This document shows positions 1 through 27,683 of a stretch of 32,703 nt of DNA, one piece after another. This DNA comes from Phormidium sp. OSCR. Lineage in GTDB: Bacteria; Cyanobacteriota; Cyanobacteriia; Cyanobacteriales; Geitlerinemataceae. The stretch covers positions 1 to 32,703 of the forward strand of contig LJZT01000046.1 in assembly GCA_001314905.1 (NCBI GenBank). The letters run 5' to 3'. Below the pieces are notes generated by a model that was not told where the DNA came from, did no database searches, and worked only from the letters and a program-made list of their open reading frames with translations. A program made the position numbers and the translations under genes. Numbering within the stretch: the first letter of the stretch is position 1; every line of letters begins with the position of its first letter.

Positions 1-77
1 GAACAGGGAACAGGGAACAGGGAACAGGGAACAGGGAACAGGGAACAGGGAACAGGGAACAGGGAACAGGGAACAGG
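1..77. repeat. Heptanucleotide tandem array, 11 units of GAACAGG
   Basis: Eleven exact copies of the 7-bp unit GAACAGG run from the first base to position 77; the array probably continues outside the window. It adjoins the dispersed repeat copy A and, read on the minus strand, forms its distal part. Heptanucleotide arrays of this kind match the STRR repeats known from filamentous cyanobacteria. Confidence 0.95.
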
Positions 78-250
78 CATGACCCACCCCTGGCCCCTCC
101 CACCGAGGGGATGGCAAGAGGCAAGAGGCATAACCCACCCCTAACCCCTCCCAGGAGGGGAGAACCCACCCCTGCCCCTCCCAAGAGGGGAAAGAGGTAG
201 GGGATTCTCTCCCAACTCAGAGTGTCCTAAGCCAATCTTCGATTGCCATA
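78..250 (-). repeat. Dispersed repeat, copy A (right part off-window)
   Basis: Read on the minus strand from 250, this begins TATGGCAATCGAAGATTGG, continues with CTTAGGACACTCTGAGTTGG and then holds three GC-rich subunits. Each subunit has a small palindrome (CCCCTC…GAGGGG) and a GGGGTGGGTT motif, followed by GGCAAGA-type heptamers on the plus strand. The head (204-250) and the GC-rich subunit match copy C (13903-14074) closely, and the head also matches copy B (10061-10184). The hairpin CAATC-GAA-GATTG is conserved. The other end is either replaced by the GAACAGG array or outside the window. No coding potential is seen. Confidence 0.8.
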
Positions 251-9976: not shown

Positions 9977-10060
9977 ATTAGGCTAACCGAAGAAGTAAAA
10001 AACAAATCAATAGCGTTTCTCATGATGTCAATCATCCTCAATTCTTGACAAATAAACACG

Positions 10061-10184
10061 ATAGCAATTGAAGATTGACTTAGGACTCTGAGTTGGAAAA
10101 GACTTCCCCACCTATTGCCTATTGCCTATTGCCTATTGCCTTCTCTTACCCAGTTTTTTTATCCTATTAAGTCAATGTCCTATA
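10061..10184 (+). repeat. Dispersed repeat, copy B, ending inside the next gene's start
   Basis: The copy starts ATAGCAATTGAAGATTG (10061), continues with CTTAGGACTCTGAGTTGG, then four CCTATTG heptamers (10111-10138), then a T-tract and TCCTATTAAGTCA, ending near CTATA (10180-10184). The head aligns with copies A and C, and the end aligns with the right end of copy C (T-tract, TCCTATT, AG, C, A, CTATA). The terminal inverted repeat is eroded compared with C, and no flanking direct repeat is found. The hybrid kinase ATG (10175) lies inside this right end. Confidence 0.7.
10111..10140. repeat. Heptanucleotide array, 4 units of CCTATTG
   Basis: Four exact CCTATTG units plus CC. The array lies inside dispersed repeat copy B at the place where copies A and C carry their own heptamers. 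It creates an in-frame TTG (10115) that could mislead start prediction for the following gene. Confidence 0.92.
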
Positions 10185-13100: not shown

Positions 13101-13813
13101 CACGACGACTGGGGTTAGTTCCCCTGATGCAGCAACTCGAAGACCATGTGGCGATAACGGAAGAGTCCACCCCGGCCCAACTCAGGGCAAACTTGGGCAA
13201 AACCATCTTAGTGGTCGATGACGATGAACATGTGCGGGAACTTTTACGCCAATCCTTAGAGGCTCAAGGCTATCACGTCCGCCAAGCCAAAGATGGCGTC
13301 GAAGCCATTATGGAGGTGAAGCGATCGCGTCCTGATTTAATTGTCTTAGATGTGATGATGCCCTATATTGATGGTTTTGACGTGGCGGCGGTGTTGAAAA
13401 ATGAACCTCAAACTATGGAAATTCCCATTTTGGTTCTCTCCATCGTCGAAGATCGCGAACGAGGCTATCGTTCTGGGGTCGATCGCTACTTGAAAAAACC
13501 CATTGATCGTCAAGGGTTTCTCAAGGAAGTGGGTTCATTACTCTGTCAAGGATCGTCTCATAAAAAGGTCTTAGTGGTCGATCATGACGCATCGAGCCTT
13601 AAGGTGATCTCTGAAATTCTTACCGCTCAAGGATATACGGTTTCAGCCGCTTCCAATGAACAGGAATGTGTTGATCAAGCCATGACCCTGCAACCGGATA
13701 TTATTGCGATTGATTCTGAATTTTTGCAAGAACATGAGGTGGTTCAAGCGTTACGGTTTGAAAAGGGCCTAGAACACCTCGTGTTTGTCTTACTCGGCGA
13801 CTTGGAACGGTAG
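10175..13813 (+). CDS. Hybrid histidine kinase with DXCF-type cyanobacteriochrome GAF, four PAS and two receivers
   Basis: 1212 residues from the ATG at 10175. Domains: GAF 40-195, PAS-like 205-325, 327-460, 467-588 and 590-710, HisKA 715-795 with H726 in VSHELRTPL, HATPase 840-958 with KGTGLGLPICKQ, receiver 1 at 1008-1125 with D1059 in LDVMMPYIDG, and a short second receiver 1130-1212. The GAF has C131-H132 in the bilin-binding context (SECHRQILRRFQVRANLVVP) and D101-Q-C103-F. The two cysteines are 28 apart, as in TePixJ-type DXCF photoreceptors. It should bind phycocyanobilin and sense blue/green or related light (inference). Receiver 2 has D1180 but stops before the conserved lysine; similar shortened ends occur in related cyanobacterial kinases. 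Upstream TTG 10115 lies in repeat DNA and is rejected. Confidence 0.87.
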   Translation: MSYTPENQTQEIARLRQQILKLEESYLAQQTALSNVIRHIRATLDLDTIFQATVQEVRHLLEVDRVAVFEFLAETHHHTGKFIAEDVKSGYESALAEQVTDQCFGDNYSGLYNQGKIYTVADIETAPMSECHRQILRRFQVRANLVVPLTKNNELWGLLCIHQCSQPRTWTQQDIEFVREVASHLDMAIQHTELFTTQQEQNRQQLQKIAKNVPGALYQFRKDANGDFSFPYMSPSVEGFLDIPSQAIEDDVSILFELAHPDDRPKLEASIQKSAETGNPWVLEWRMRTPSGNLKWIEGRSQPEHQADGSIIWFGWLNDISERKASERELQALAAIIENSNDFIGIGTFDGTPEYVNPAGRQLVGLADEESGVAAGDVAKPKLRDCTFEDFFLPEDWQWMQENVFAIVQQTGNWRGEINFRHMPTNEPIPLDYNLFVTYAPDTKEAIGLAAIARDIRDRRASEQFLRESEQRFRDVSEAVGEYLWEANLEGHYTYVSERSLDVLGYNHQDLLGRNSFDLVYEEDIDWLAQAFATTVERQEPFQLDYRSVTEQGEVIWISATGIPCFDDQGNLIGYRGAGRNITERKQAEEALKQALGDLNAILDNLADGLLVTDTAGRITRFNPVLRRMFNLKTGDVLGCSCDELGLTELSQLLQHLQTTPNSQAATAEIPLGGDRIGQALATNVLEPGRGQSENPCIGSVILIRDVTLEKEVDRMKTDFIATVSHELRTPLTSVLGFASIVLDKLEDKIFPRLPEGDRKAQRHQERVRQNLNIIVSEAERLTTLINDVLDIAKMEAGKVEWDQDPLSVLEVLEQAIAASSSLFERDNLQLMTEFPDQLPPILGDRDRLIQVVINLLSNAVKFTESGEIICRACYETSQDTSQIRVEVQDTGVGIAAEDLPKVFEKFKQVGETLTDKPKGTGLGLPICKQILEHHGGQIWVESELGQGSCFIFTLPVEKTTEGRSPSKLSQTPEVARRLGLVPLMQQLEDHVAITEESTPAQLRANLGKTILVVDDDEHVRELLRQSLEAQGYHVRQAKDGVEAIMEVKRSRPDLIVLDVMMPYIDGFDVAAVLKNEPQTMEIPILVLSIVEDRERGYRSGVDRYLKKPIDRQGFLKEVGSLLCQGSSHKKVLVVDHDASSLKVISEILTAQGYTVSAASNEQECVDQAMTLQPDIIAIDSEFLQEHEVVQALRFEKGLEHLVFVLLGDLER

Positions 13814-13853
13814 TGGCGATCGCTGACAAATCCGCTTCTTGGGTGCTATGGTA

Positions 13854-13893
13854 GTGGATGGTTCTGATTGTAGCAATCTCGCAGAACCACCAC
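13854..13893. terminator. Long stem-loop downstream of the hybrid kinase
   Basis: Nested arms GTGG / CCAC, GGTTCTG (13860-13866) / CAGAACC (13882-13888) and inner ATTG-TAG-CAAT. It sits 40 nt after the kinase stop and just before the direct repeat flanking copy C. There is no T-tract, so it may be a processing or stability hairpin rather than a true terminator. Confidence 0.45.
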
Positions 13894-13902
13894 TAATACA
13901 AC

Positions 13903-14074
13903 TATAGCAATCGAAGATTGCCTGATTGACACTCTGAAGGATACTCTGAGTTGGAAGAGAATCTGCTACCTCTTGCCATCCCCTCCTGGGAGGGGTTAGG
14001 GGTGGGTTATGCCTTTTGCCTCTTGCCTTCTTGTCCCCTGTTTTTTGTCCTATTCAGACCAACTTTTGCTATAA
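13903..14074 (+). mobile_element. MITE-like element, dispersed repeat copy C
   Basis: About 172 bp, beginning TATAGCAA (13903-13910) and ending TTGCTATA (14066-14073), an 8-bp terminal inverted repeat. A perfect 12-bp direct repeat CACTAATACAAC flanks it at 13891-13902 and 14075-14086 (one extra A on the right), as expected of a target-site duplication. Inside are the hairpin GCAATC-GAA-GATTGC, a partly duplicated ACTCTGA segment, a CCCCTCC…GGAGGGG palindrome with GGGGTGGGTT, and three GCCTNTT-type heptamers. No ORF of its own, so any transposition would need an enzyme supplied elsewhere. Copies A (78-250) and B (10061-10184) share its head. Confidence 0.7.
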
Positions 14075-14075
14075 C
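14045..14075 (+). promoter_or_regulatory. Candidate extended -10 promoter at the right end of copy C
   Basis: TG-C-TATAAC (14067-14075) resembles an extended -10; TTGTCC (14045-14050) is a partial -35 at 19-nt spacing. Transcription from here would give the CheY-like gene (14140) a leader of roughly 55-60 nt. It is partly formed by the terminal inverted repeat of the element. Confidence 0.4.
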
Positions 14076-14139
14076 ACTAATACAACCAATAATAACTCTC
14101 CCTAGCAAACACCCCTACTTTTACGATTCGTTACATACT

Positions 14140-14517
14140 ATGTGTTTAAAAATTTTGATTGTGGACGATGAACCAAATATTAGGATTTTATTAGAACAAG
14201 CTCTGGAAGACTTAGAAGATGAAGGCGTTGAACTGCTGATGGCGAGTCATGGACTTGAGGCTTTAGAGGTGGTTCAAGAAGAACATCCGAATCTAATTTT
14301 TTTAGATGTAATGATGCCGAAAAAGAATGGTTTGGAAGTCTGTAAAACCATTAAGCAAGACTGGAATCAGACGGATATTTATATCGTTATGCTAACGGCC
14401 AAGGGACAAGAAGTTGAGAAAGAAGAAGGCTTTGCGATGGGGGCTGATTTTTATATGACAAAGCCATTTCGTCCTAAAGAAATTGTGGCTAAAGCTCGTT
14501 CTGTATTGGATTTATAG
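14140..14517 (+). CDS. CheY-like single-domain response regulator
   Basis: A 125-residue stand-alone receiver from the ATG at 14140. All phospho-transfer residues are present: acidic pair D10-D11, phospho-acceptor D56 in IFLDVMMPKKNG, T86 in MLTAKG and K108 in MTKPF. There is no output domain, so it should act by protein interaction or as a phospho-relay intermediate. The frame is open upstream to 13951 but passes through the copy C element and is discarded. It follows two histidine kinases on the same strand, making them natural partner candidates; the hybrid kinase stop is 326 nt upstream, so it is probably transcribed separately, perhaps from the promoter at the edge of copy C. Confidence 0.9.
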   Translation: MCLKILIVDDEPNIRILLEQALEDLEDEGVELLMASHGLEALEVVQEEHPNLIFLDVMMPKKNGLEVCKTIKQDWNQTDIYIVMLTAKGQEVEKEEGFAMGADFYMTKPFRPKEIVAKARSVLDL

Positions 14518-14564: not shown

Positions 14565-14597
14565 TGATGTTTAACTGATATTTAACTGATATTTAAC
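14565..14597. repeat. 11-bp tandem repeat overlapping a stop codon
   Basis: TGATGTTTAAC, TGATATTTAAC and TGATATTTAAC run head to tail. The last unit contains the TAA stop of the minus-strand GldG-like gene, the second case in this window where a tandem repeat forms the end of a gene (compare 2403-2444). Confidence 0.9.
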
Positions 14598-16449
14598 GGC
14601 GAGTCCACCACAGTACAGCACTGGTTGCAAAACCAATCACTGGAAAGGTCACTAAGGCGGTCCAACTCAGTAACCGGGCAATTCTTGGGGTCATGATGAT
14701 ATTGCGATCGACCACCTCCTGAGGGCGAATGGTTAGGTTGTCGTCGCTGTCCACATCACTGAGCCAAGAGACGCTATTGAGGAAAAAGTCACTGTTTAAT
14801 TGTCCGTCAAAAAAGGCATTCGTCATAAAATCGGAATCTCCGATGACTACTAAACGCGCTTCACGAGTTTCCTGAGATGTTTCCTCGGGAGTTTCTTCAG
14901 TCTCAGGAGTTTCTTCAGGAGTGTCTACATCTTCAGGAGTTTCTTCAGTCTCAGGAGTGTCTACATCTTCAGGAGTTTCTTCAGGAGTGTCTACATCTTC
15001 AGGAGTTTCTTCAGGAGTGTCTACATCTTCAGGAGTGTCTACATCTTCAGGAGTGTCTACATCTTCAGGAGTGTCTTCAGTCTCAGGAGTGTCTTCAGGA
15101 GTGTCAAGCTCATTCTCTTGCGGTTCCTGCACCTCTTGCGGTTCCTCTTCTGGTTCAGCGGGTTCCGTCACTTCGGCTGACTCATCCCCTTGAGACAGCT
15201 CTCGACGAGCCGCAACCCCTAACACGAGGGGACCAGGGCGATCGCCTTCAGCATTCAACTCCCAATCAGGTCCTTCTTCGAGAGTCGCTTCGGCCCAACT
15301 GGCGTTACTGGTAAATAACAATGGAGTGATCTCAACCCCCTCTACCGTGTCATACTCCAGCGGACGAGCCACAGGAAAAATCGTGTAATTGCGGCCAAAG
15401 TCCTCCGTAATGGGATGAGTTCCATAGTCAAGAACCAGGGGGGCCGCCGGGCCAAACCCTTGAACCCAGCGATCGGGATCGATCGCAATCCGTTCATCGA
15501 GCCGAATCCCCCAAGTCCCTAACCAGTCCTCCAAACCGGGATCTGTATTGGGATCGACCAACACCAACACCGAGCCACCCTCATCGAAATAGTCATTTAA
15601 CGCCTCAAGTTCCGGCTCAAACAGGCCACTGGTGGGACCAATCATGGCCACAACATCAGCATCCTCTGGAACACTTCCCCGCTCAATGAGATTGAGAGAG
15701 TTCACCACCGCAGCATTTTCTTCCAAGGCTCGTACCGCGCGGGAAATCGACTCTTCGCCATCAGCCAAAACCGCCGGTTCTCCATGGCCTTGTAGCATAT
15801 ACACCGTCAGGCGATCGCCTCCTTGCAATTGAGCTAAGCTGCGAGTCAATTGTGCTTCAGCCAGAGGTTCTAAGTCCAAGGTGGTCACATATTGACGCTG
15901 ATCGCCAATTTCGAGAAATACATCCCCCACAGACGAGACCTCAAATCTCTGAACCAAACCCGGATTCGCTTGCGGGTTAACCAGTTCATACTCGAAGCGA
16001 TCGGGTGCAAGACGGCGATAGTTCTCCAACAAATCCACCGTTCTCTCATTGGGTTGCGAGGAAAATACCCACACCTTCACCGGTTCGTCTAAATTACGAA
16101 TTAAGGTTTGAGTTTGCGGCGCGAGAGTAAAACGTTGAGTTTCCGTGACATCAAAACGAACCTCAGCGCGAACCGCCAAGAAATTCATCAACACTAGAAT
16201 TAAAAGAACCGCCGCTGTCGCAAAAAGAGCGTTGGTTCCCGCCTCCGTCGATCGCCGCGCCCAAAAGCCTCGCTGAAACGTCCCGAGGTAGATGAGCCAA
16301 ATTCCTAAAATGATGACCCCTGCAACGATAAGTGAGGCCGGAATTGGCATCCAAACTCCAGTGACTGTACCGCTGGTGAGTCCGGCTACGCTTAGAAATA
16401 AGCCCAGCCATAACAAAATATTCCAGTATTTTTTAAGGATATTGACCAT
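14593..16449 (-). CDS. GldG-like ABC transporter auxiliary protein with acidic repeat insert
   Basis: 618 residues from the ATG at 16449 (a GTG at 16464 is an alternative). Two N-terminal membrane helices (about 8-28 and 35-58), a third at 75-93, a large periplasmic-side region (about 95-530) and one C-terminal helix (593-615). RFDVTETQRFTLAPQTQTLI and VYMLQGHGEP, plus the later RLVVIGDSDFMTNAFF, are typical of the GldG/ABC_transp_aux family. It is the third gene of an ATPase-permease-GldG set (12-27 nt from the permease). In Bacteroidetes Gld proteins support gliding; the cyanobacterial substrate is unknown. A roughly 110-residue acidic insert of PEDVDT and PEET repeats splits the domain just before the RLVVIGDSDF strand. 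The stop lies in a tandem repeat. Confidence 0.85.
   Translation of the reverse strand: MVNILKKYWNILLWLGLFLSVAGLTSGTVTGVWMPIPASLIVAGVIILGIWLIYLGTFQRGFWARRSTEAGTNALFATAAVLLILVLMNFLAVRAEVRFDVTETQRFTLAPQTQTLIRNLDEPVKVWVFSSQPNERTVDLLENYRRLAPDRFEYELVNPQANPGLVQRFEVSSVGDVFLEIGDQRQYVTTLDLEPLAEAQLTRSLAQLQGGDRLTVYMLQGHGEPAVLADGEESISRAVRALEENAAVVNSLNLIERGSVPEDADVVAMIGPTSGLFEPELEALNDYFDEGGSVLVLVDPNTDPGLEDWLGTWGIRLDERIAIDPDRWVQGFGPAAPLVLDYGTHPITEDFGRNYTIFPVARPLEYDTVEGVEITPLLFTSNASWAEATLEEGPDWELNAEGDRPGPLVLGVAARRELSQGDESAEVTEPAEPEEEPQEVQEPQENELDTPEDTPETEDTPEDVDTPEDVDTPEDVDTPEETPEDVDTPEETPEDVDTPETEETPEDVDTPEETPETEETPEETSQETREARLVVIGDSDFMTNAFFDGQLNSDFFLNSVSWLSDVDSDDNLTIRPQEVVDRNIIMTPRIARLLSWTALVTFPVIGFATSAVLWWTRR
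14863..15102 (-). repeat. In-frame 18/12-bp repeat array encoding PEDVDT and PEET units
   Basis: Mixed 18-bp (CCTGAAGATGTAGACACT on the minus strand) and 12-bp units, all multiples of three, giving an uninterrupted Thr-Pro-Glu-Asp tract in the GldG-like protein. Near-identical DNA units point to recent expansion by slippage or unequal recombination. Confidence 0.9.
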
Positions 16450-16476
16450 AATGGTTAAACACACGAGAACAGGGCG

Positions 16477-25878: not shown

Positions 25879-25935
25879 ATGAGCCTGGACATTTTGAATG
25901 AATTTTTGCTCAACGATTACCTGTATGTCTTCTGA
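25879..25935 (+). CDS. Possible 18-residue leader peptide
   Basis: The ATG at 25879 follows AGGAGG by three bases and opens the frame MSLDILNEFLLNDYLYVF, ending at TGA 25933-25935. The stop overlaps the region of the likely TonB-like start (ATG 25925), the arrangement expected for translational coupling, and that gene has no Shine-Dalgarno of its own. The peptide matches nothing I know. Spacing of the ribosome site is short, so this is only a candidate. Confidence 0.3.
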   Translation: MSLDILNEFLLNDYLYVF

Positions 25936-27136
25936 GGCGTCCCAACTTCACTCCACCCCGGCTCACCCTAACATGGGGCAGTCGACTCCCTGGCAACGGC
26001 TACGACAGACTCTGTTACAGCCGAACCTGTTGGCGATCGCCATTTCCGTGGGCCTTCATGGGGCCGTAGCGGCCGCTTTGCCGTTCATTGGCTTAAATCA
26101 AGAAGAGTCTCAGGGCGATCGCATCCTTGATAGTAATGTTGTCGAACTCACCTCGGAAGAACTGGCCCAATTCGCTCCCGCTGCTACTCAGGAGTTTGGG
26201 GCCGGGGCCTCGGGGTTTGACGTTGAGCAGAACTCTGACTCAACTGTGCCGCCGTCACTCTCGAATCGTTCTAGCTTCCCACCTCCCCCACCAGCGGATG
26301 ATTCAACACAAACCCGAGATTCGATTCAAGATCGCTGGAGTAGCTGGGAAGATCAGTTTACGCCTTCGCCGACCCCCCCGCCCATGAGTCAGAGTTACGA
26401 GAGTTACACCTCTGGCAATCCTGGGACCTTCTCACAAGACTCTTCATCGAGGGAGTATGAGGATATCTGGCAACAGCATCAACAGCAGTGGGAGGACATC
26501 CAACGCGATCGCAGCTATCCGCCCCCCCCTGTCGACGAGAGCCAACCTGACGCTAACACGGGGCCAAGCCAACAGGAACTCTTGCAAGAGAAAAAAGAGC
26601 TCTCGTCTTCTGAATCCCCCTCATCTGAGTCGGAGGAGGGGACTGAACAGGCTGCTGTGACGCCCAGTGGAGAAGACTATCGGCCCGGAATGGCCTTGGT
26701 GGGTGAGTACTATGGTTGGCTCGATCAGGTGTACAACGCTGATCCTGACCTCGAAGAAAACACGACGGTTTGGGAGGAACGAGAGCCCCAGGAGATTGAG
26801 GGGGTATTGCCACCGCAACCGGTCTATGAGCGCTTTCTGGGTGAGTCGTTTTATGTTGGGGTTTTGGTGACTCCCGAGGGGACTGTCGATCAGTTCAGTC
26901 CTTTACCGGTTGATGACAATCGCCTCTTACGCTTAGCCCTGGAAACCACCTTTGATAACTACTCGTTTCCTGAACAAGACCAATACCGAGCCTATTGGTT
27001 CCAAGTGAACTTTACTCCCGAAGCTGAGGCGATCGACCCCGAACCCTCAGAAGCCGAATCCTCAGAAGCCGAATCCTCAGAAGCCGAATCCTCAGAAGCC
27101 GAATCCTCAGAAGCCGAATCCTCAGAAGCCGAATGA
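25925..27136 (+). CDS. TonB-like envelope protein, interrupted in its repeat array
   Basis: 403 residues from the ATG at 25925 (ATG 25898 in frame is an alternative). An N-terminal membrane helix (about 35-57) carries the Ser-x3-His pattern (ISVGLHGAV) of TonB-type transducers. A long Pro/Ser/Gln-rich periplasmic linker leads to a TonB-C-like alpha/beta segment (FYVGVLVTPEGTVDQFSPLP … YRAYWFQVNF). The frame then enters a 15-bp repeat coding SSEAE and ends at TGA 27134-27136. A 5-nt deletion there shifts the frame; the next frame continues SSEAE and encodes a second similar domain (27135-27683). So the gene is truncated as sequenced: mutation, phase-variable state or assembly error. Likely role: envelope-spanning energy transduction or cell-envelope linkage, not proven. 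Confidence 0.7.
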   Translation: MSSEASQLHSTPAHPNMGQSTPWQRLRQTLLQPNLLAIAISVGLHGAVAAALPFIGLNQEESQGDRILDSNVVELTSEELAQFAPAATQEFGAGASGFDVEQNSDSTVPPSLSNRSSFPPPPPADDSTQTRDSIQDRWSSWEDQFTPSPTPPPMSQSYESYTSGNPGTFSQDSSSREYEDIWQQHQQQWEDIQRDRSYPPPPVDESQPDANTGPSQQELLQEKKELSSSESPSSESEEGTEQAAVTPSGEDYRPGMALVGEYYGWLDQVYNADPDLEENTTVWEEREPQEIEGVLPPQPVYERFLGESFYVGVLVTPEGTVDQFSPLPVDDNRLLRLALETTFDNYSFPEQDQYRAYWFQVNFTPEAEAIDPEPSEAESSEAESSEAESSEAESSEAESSEAE

Positions 27137-27200
27137 AGCCGAATCCTCAGAAGCCGAATCCTCAGAAGCCGAATCCTCAGAAGCCGAATCCTCAGAACCC
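27045..27200 (+). repeat. 15-bp tandem array with one 10-bp unit that breaks the frame
   Basis: CCTCAGAAGCCGAAT repeats six times in full (27045-27134), then GAAGCCGAAT (27135-27144) lacks CCTCA, then three full units (27145-27189) and a partial one. The short unit creates TGA at 27134-27136 and moves the frame by one. Full units keep the frame (five codons, PSEAE/SSEAE). Confidence 0.95.
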
Positions 27201-27683
27201 ACCCGTCTTGCACCCGAGCAGGCCTTGGCCTATATCAGCCCCCTAGATTTAGGTGAAACCGCTCAGCAGCGGTGGCTAACCTGGCTCGACACTTGGCTCG
27301 ATGATTCAGACTTGTCCCTGAGCCTACCCGAAGAACCGTCAATCGTCCTAAAACGGGAACTTCCCTCATCACAACTGTCTGAACCGCAACGAGTCGTTTT
27401 TGCCATCACTCAGGATCAAGCAGGGAACCTTCTCGGAGCCAGTCCCTATCCCCTCCAAGTCACCGGTGATGAGGCGTTAGATCAATATGCTCGTCAGAGC
27501 CTGATCGAAGCCTTAGCAGAACGAAACCTAGAATCGTCCGTCCCCGGCCAAGTCTTAGCCGATGTCATGGTTGTGGATTTAATTCCTACAGAGGAGCCAA
27601 CGGATGCCGTGCAAAAATCTCCGCCCGGTGTAGATCAAGCCCCAGAACCGTCCTCAACCCCACCTCAAACCAAAAAACGATAA
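27135..27683 (+). pseudogene. Detached C-terminal part of the TonB-like gene
   Basis: In the frame starting at 27135 the DNA codes EAESSEAESSEAE, then PTRLAPEQALAYISPLDLGE and a domain with strand-turn-strand-helix pattern (VVFAITQDQAGNLLGASPYP … DEALDQYARQSLIEALAERN), resembling the TonB-C-like segment of the upstream part. No ATG or GTG start with a ribosome site is present; the first possible start is a TTG at 27225, without Shine-Dalgarno. Restoring five bases in the array joins it to the upstream frame to give about 587-596 residues. It is probably untranslated as sequenced unless frameshifting or reinitiation occurs. Confidence 0.7.

Follow-up and report, generated by a model that had tools for sequence, protein, structure and literature searches.

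Two perfect copies of a 12-bp sequence, CACTAATACAAC, enclose a short non-coding segment in an intergenic region of the cyanobacterium Phormidium sp. OSCR. Did a mobile element insert here and duplicate 12 bp of target, and do the repeats in its interior move with it? The preliminary description of the locus favored both possibilities. Here, we discuss these questions for the 32,703-nucleotide stretch of contig LJZT01000046.1 that was analyzed (the "window"), using copies of the segment in the same genome (G000) and in related genomes. The combined data show that the element family is real and recently active, with a 2-bp target duplication of the TA type.

Anatomy of the element at the window locus

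Positions 13903-14073 constitute one non-coding copy of a dispersed MITE-like family [Table 1]. The span from TATAGCAA (13903-13910) through TTGCTATA (14066-14073) is 171 bp, and a single extra A at 14074 lies between TTGCTATA and the right direct repeat. The 12-bp direct repeats and the 8-bp inverted repeats given in the preliminary description are present. However, TA is the measured 2-bp duplication (see below) and hence the outer TA of the 8-bp repeat is best read as target, with an inverted repeat proper of 6 bp (TAGCAA/TTGCTA).

Head and tail are conserved among copies, the head containing a hairpin, and the middle between them varies. Across the 93 copies that we collected, the five inner pairs of the hairpin are nearly invariant, and the outermost G-C pair is found in 54. 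As these inner pairs hardly vary, they leave little room for a covariation signal in the head hairpin. The loop is GAA in 80 of the 93 copies and TTC in four; the latter have the appearance of an inverted 13-bp hairpin. Searching Rfam with positions 13800-14200 gave no match at E values up to 1.

Table 1. Features of the element and of two further copies in the window.
Feature	Position	Strand	Basis or remark
Further copy	1..250	-	head at 250-233; extends to contig start
Decayed copy	10060..10174	+	recognizable tail fades at about the sensor kinase start codon (10175)
Left direct repeat CACTAATACAAC	13891..13902	+	12 bp; among 93 copies, unique to the window copy
Left TA of the 2-bp target duplication	13903..13904	+	empty sites; outer dinucleotides TA/TA in 79/93 copies
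Conserved head module, left TA included	13903..13977	+	copies and consensus; right limit approximate
Mobile element proper, TAGCAA...TTGCTA	13905..14071	+	167 bp; borders from copies and empty sites
Left terminal inverted repeat TAGCAA	13905..13910	+	copy comparison
Head hairpin GCAATC-GAA-GATTGC	13907..13921	+	pairing across 93 copies
GC-rich palindrome cassette	13979..14008	+	such a cassette in 28/93 copies
Short heptamer-type run	14012..14033	+	sequence; middle-length modulo 7 test
Conserved tail module, ending in TTGCTA + TA	14026..14073	+	consensus
Right terminal inverted repeat TTGCTA	14066..14071	+	copy comparison
Right TA of the 2-bp target duplication	14072..14073	+	copies and empty sites
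Right direct repeat CACTAATACAAC, CAA next	14075..14086	+	sequence; 12 bp

The decayed copy reaches to about the likely ATG (10175) of a large sensor kinase, and a TTG-started frame at 10115 begins inside it. An approximate pattern for the kinase start found no match in three named relatives (L066, L067, and L072; see below), and in G001 the orthologous sensor kinase (L049) is interrupted by an insertion of ~1.2 kb. The minus-strand copy at the contig start holds GAACAGG heptamers, and such repeats may break assembly. The window also carries two coding minisatellites. One, at 14870-15097, has a spacing of 18/30 bp and lies inside frame 14593-16464 or at its end; the other, at 26997-27215, has a spacing of 15 bp and lies inside frame 25898-27136 or at its end.

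Copies and their distribution

The window segment has 63 matches in its own genome. When a copy is defined as a head with a tail (at most four mismatches) no more than 400 bp away, there are 93 distinct head-plus-tail copies of 113-285 bp in four genomes of one genus (G000, 31; G001, 31; G005, 30; G004, 1). They were gathered with a head pattern and BLAST, which favors intact heads, and they include at least three orthologous pairs; among the other fetched heads, none has a tail beyond 400 bp. The search for further copies sharing the head, as the preliminary description had proposed, was thus productive, and its view of the segment as a small non-autonomous mobile element is borne out by the many copies, the shared ends, and the empty orthologous sites discussed below.

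Matches to the window segment were found in 17 of 59 genomes searched, its own included, and those outside the genus, among the matches listed, cover the middle only. Likewise, a 121-bp copy used as query matches 71 of 291 genomes of the order, including all seven members of the genus, and among the matches listed from outside the genus only positions 44-103 are covered. Scoring extended to at most three candidates per genome (121-bp query) or at most 14 (window-segment query, relatives), so that heads or tails with weak similarity in other genera may have been missed. A 16-base head pattern with at most one mismatch occurs in three of four further genus members (G003, G004, and G006, not G002) and in none of seven genomes from other genera of the family. 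Counting G000, G001, and G005, heads are present in six of the seven genus genomes. Three named relatives look identical to genus members over the compared stretch of the locus: Phormidium willei BDU 130791 (L066) to G004, Geitlerinema sp. P-1104 (L067) to G003, and Phormidium sp. SL48-SHIP (L072) to G006; an excerpt of PMC9420970 places these three organisms in one GTDB genus, Phormidium_A. Among the titles and abstract openings of one literature collection, we found no published description of the element.

Target duplication and empty sites

Irrespective of what the window copy suggests, the direct repeats near the borders of the other 92 copies are 1-6 bp long and resemble those seen when flanks are paired across copies. 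In 8556 such mismatched pairings, the longest repeat was 10 bp and none reached the 12 bp of the window copy, whose repeat thus exceeds chance expectation. The outer dinucleotides are TA/TA in 79 of the 93 copies. Seven copies deviate from TA on the right only and seven on both sides; four of the latter still match directly (TT/TT in three, CA/CA in one), and the remaining three are mismatched (TT/GT, TT/TC, and GA/AG).

The empty sites give a direct measure. For 25 sites in G005 and G001, the insert was removed in silico and the resulting sequence was searched in the other genome. Of the 20 matches aligned, 14 extend 15 nt or more to either side of the junction and six do not. The empty dinucleotide is TA in 11 of the 14 spanning alignments (CC, TG, and TG in the other three), and seven have TA and are ungapped for 20 nt around the junction (L206, L207, L208, L209, L211, L213, and L237). 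Gaps at the junction correspond to 30, 7, and 1 additional nt in the empty relative (L239, L210, and L236, respectively) and to 6 nt fewer in L214. A 12-nt excess in the filled site was not seen in any spanning alignment. These data fit a 2-bp target duplication, usually TA. As a comparison, an excerpt of PMC2170065 reports 39 events for the cyanobacterial IS630 element ISY100, with TA duplicated in 34 and AA/TT in two.

Sites that are filled in one genome and empty in the other mean that the element has moved. Moreover, at L188/L206 the flanks are identical over 122 of 122 bases and the insert is present in G005 only, showing that movement is recent. In the intergenic region that corresponds to the window locus, G005 has an insertion at a different position, and G001 is empty there (CCTGG-TA-TAGTAGTCC). 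Seven orthologous loci were fetched (L046-L052), of which L051 and L052 have no junction readable by the pattern used.

The 12-bp flanking repeat

How, then, did the window copy come to lie between two CACTAATACAAC units? If CACTAATACAAC were a 12-bp target-site duplication made by the element, as the preliminary description held, relatives should exist with one unit and no insert. Two such relatives, G004 and G006, were indeed found, and the repeat is perfect on both sides of the window element. Yet the repeat is restricted to one of 93 copies, the others being comparable to mismatched flanks, the empty sites give a duplication of 2 bp, and a 12-bp duplication leaves the extra A at 14074 unexplained. 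We consider this origin improbable, and CACTAATACAAC is very probably not a target duplication.

When the element and one TA are removed, what remains is CACTAATACAAC-TAA followed by CACTAATACAAC-CAA, i.e., a 15-bp tandem repeat with one mismatch. The alignment with G004 and G006 fits equally well with TA plus an older tandem repeat and with a 12-bp duplication plus one A; the other 92 copies together with the empty sites favor the former. Hence, the CACTAATACAAC pair most likely goes back to an older local duplication that was already there when the element landed in it. The TA that received the insertion would probably have lain within a pre-existing 15-bp tandem duplication (CACTAATACAACTAA/CACTAATACAACCAA), so that one 12-bp unit ended up on each side. 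Among the strains searched, none was found with the tandem repeat (CACTAATACAACTAACACTAATACAACCAA) and without the insert.

Turnover of the interior

The preliminary description further suggested that the interior repeats can move as a unit. This suggestion was not supported: for the most part, the interior repeats do not simply move as one block. The GC-rich cassette is present in 28 of the 93 copies, a second cassette (GGGCGACCACAAGGGT) in ten, and both in three. Orthologous copies differ inside, and most heptamer arrays in sampled DNA lie elsewhere (see below). At least one or two heptamers are present in every copy whose sequence was inspected, so that some of the interior repeats do move along with the element. 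In addition, for the 45 copies that passed the cassette filter and had both anchors, the length of the middle falls in one class modulo 7 in 28 cases, which indicates that the middle changes largely by whole heptamers.

Three orthologous pairs, with flank identities of 88-97%, differ in the middle, and their heads and tails differ at few positions. L312 and L199 are distinguished by a 50-bp stretch comprising the second cassette and heptamers, L195 and L348 by a GC-rich cassette present in only one of them plus smaller changes, and L345 and L317 by the type and number of heptamers. The cassettes also differ among L323, L333, and L360, which have similar left flanks in three genomes. In one of the orthologs L312/L199, a GGGCGACCACAAGGGTACGCCCC cassette sits inside a heptamer run; it is absent in the other. 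In-place turnover is thus seen as differences between orthologous copies, compatible with either gain or loss. The middle would accordingly be remodeled in place, with heptamers varying in number and type and GC-rich cassettes being gained or lost.

To what extent do these repeats occur apart from the element? We sampled 400 kb, evenly spaced, of G001 and 392 kb of G000, the latter from five contigs picked for holding matches and hence not random. Of the perfect heptamer arrays, four of 29 (G001) and none of 28 (G000) have a recognized head or tail at a distance of 250 bp or less; with relaxed thresholds, the numbers of such arrays are five and zero, respectively. For GC-rich cassettes, a recognized head or tail is present within ~300 bp in none of five (G001) and three of 20 (G000). 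Within the samples, tandem heptamers are located no more than 70 bp from 13 of 18 second cassettes, against eight of 360 random positions. With a looser pattern, the same holds for 19 of 41 GC-rich cassettes (2/10 in G001 and 17/31 in G000), against 20 of 820 random positions; both contrasts are overstated, because the random positions include coding DNA. This proximity to tandem heptamers raises the tentative possibility that the heptamer run acts as a docking site, where GC-rich palindromic cassettes would insert into MITEs already in place, using heptamer homology or mobility of their own.

Nature of the element and the source of its transposase

The element is small, has many copies, constant ends, and no room for a transposase, and it combines short terminal inverted repeats with empty sites and a 2-bp target duplication that is mostly TA. 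Such a TA duplication is also made in IS630/Tc1-mariner transposition, and the order of leader, tandem array, and tail is that of MITEs bearing tandem repeats. We therefore regard it as likely that the element is an IS630/Tc1-mariner-type MITE, a non-autonomous DNA transposon mobilized in trans and duplicating TA on insertion. According to this model, a transposase supplied in trans would cut at TAGCAA...TTGCTA, and the element would insert at a TA that becomes duplicated; the IS630-like nature of the enzyme is inferred.

Which IS630 gene could provide it? The subgroup with ends reading TAGCA next to TA (group C) is perhaps the source, a candidacy based on the short shared termini. NCBIfam NF033545 identifies its protein P0001, whose element has an end of TA followed by TAGCAGTCC, as an IS630 transposase. 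P0001 matches six of the 12 genomes searched (G001, G002, G003, G007, G008, and G009, with no match in G000, G004, G005, G006, G010, or G011). IS630 elements of the genus and family end in TATAGCAG or TATAGCAA, and a decayed relative in G009 has one of each. About seven terminal bases are common to the element and group C, and the inner ends differ. Groups A and B were set aside as partners on account of their ends, ATACGGAATCC and ATATCAAGTCC. In G001, one group C copy (L174) has its left end replaced by a group A end, apparently through a nested insertion. In G005, which harbors 30 copies, one insertion being very young, all IS630 genes belong to the group with ends ATATCAAGTCC; because this genome moved the element recently with no group C gene detected, and the inner ends differ, group C stays a putative partner.

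These observations bear on a rather unlikely alternative, which differs from the IS630-type model in the enzyme alone: a MITE with TA duplication moved by a transposase outside the IS630 family. Matches to PF13358 were obtained in G001, G002, G003, and G005 and not in G000, G004, or G006, though all three carry copies. The lack of a detected IS630 gene in G000 and of group C in G005 agrees with such an enzyme, as does the one PF13586 gene in G000. However, no TATAGCAA...TTGCTATA pair (at most one mismatch per end, 700-2600 bp apart) lies in the 3.2 kb around that gene, and by this loose rule two of ten other PF13586 loci have a pair (L414 and L409), with L414 unconvincing on inspection. Far less probable is that the head hairpin serves an element of the IS200/IS605-like or REP-like kind. 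The hairpin is well kept and adjoins the left end, but inverted ends and a 2-bp target duplication speak against such an element; IS200/IS605 elements, to our knowledge, have neither. That the family is a plain intergenic repeat spread by recombination is hardly credible: heptamers and cassettes do occur apart from the element, but the borders are sharp at unrelated flanks and the empty sites are clean.

An autonomous copy was not found, and all 93 head-plus-tail copies are shorter than 400 bp. Of 116 distinct heads, 23 have no recognized tail in the fetched DNA; some of these represent the hairpin as seen on the opposite strand (e.g., L011, L026, and L327), and others run into a contig end within 100-320 bp. 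Long frames were inspected by eye in up to 1.5 kb downstream of 16 tailless heads, and apart from L202 (G005) none looked transposase-like. In L202, a PF01609 transposase frame (1588 onwards, opposite strand) lies ~100 bp past the head, which is accompanied by part of a cassette. In L185 (G001), which has a similar left flank, the cassette continues at the same point. Hence, the L202 frame is read as probably belonging to another transposon inside a MITE copy, with its far end beyond the fetched stretch.

Relation to known elements

By analogy, the closest known kind appears to be the tandem-repeat-bearing MITEs, e.g., BrickBuilt of Porphyromonas gingivalis. As described in an excerpt of PMC4596501, BrickBuilt shares with the present element a leader, internal tandem repeats, a tail, and short inverted-repeat ends, as well as a lineage-limited distribution and the lack of a transposase remnant inside. 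In contrast to BrickBuilt, whose repeats measure 23 nt, whose ends are IS5-like, and whose flanking duplications are unequal, the element here has 7-nt repeats, TAGCAA ends, and a duplication that is 2 bp and mostly TA; compared by eye, the ends published in that excerpt differ from those of our element. ISY100/IS630 is likewise cyanobacterial, inserts at TA, and duplicates it, but it encodes a transposase and has 24-bp inverted repeats (PMC2170065, excerpt), whereas the present element could not accommodate a transposase, and its two ends match over 6-8 bp only. In IS630 group C of the same genus, TA is followed by TAGCAG at the ends. Anabaena sp. 90 offers, by description, another cyanobacterium with many MITEs; an excerpt of PMC3542288 terms these type II on the ground that no IS in the same genome resembles them at the ends. 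Nezha is named an active cyanobacterial MITE in the title of a work cited in PMC10969869.

Implications

Within one cyanobacterial genus, the element forms a MITE family that inserts at TA, has moved recently, and belongs to an already known kind of element. A tempting misreading is corrected: the perfect 12-bp flanking repeat looks like a target duplication and very probably is not. With its clean empty sites, the family is a resource on recent MITE movement in one cyanobacterial genus, and its orthologous copies allow the turnover of heptamers and GC-rich palindromes to be followed in place. If the docking-site reading is true, the MITE would serve as a landing platform with constant ends, and its cargo would be exchanged in situ.
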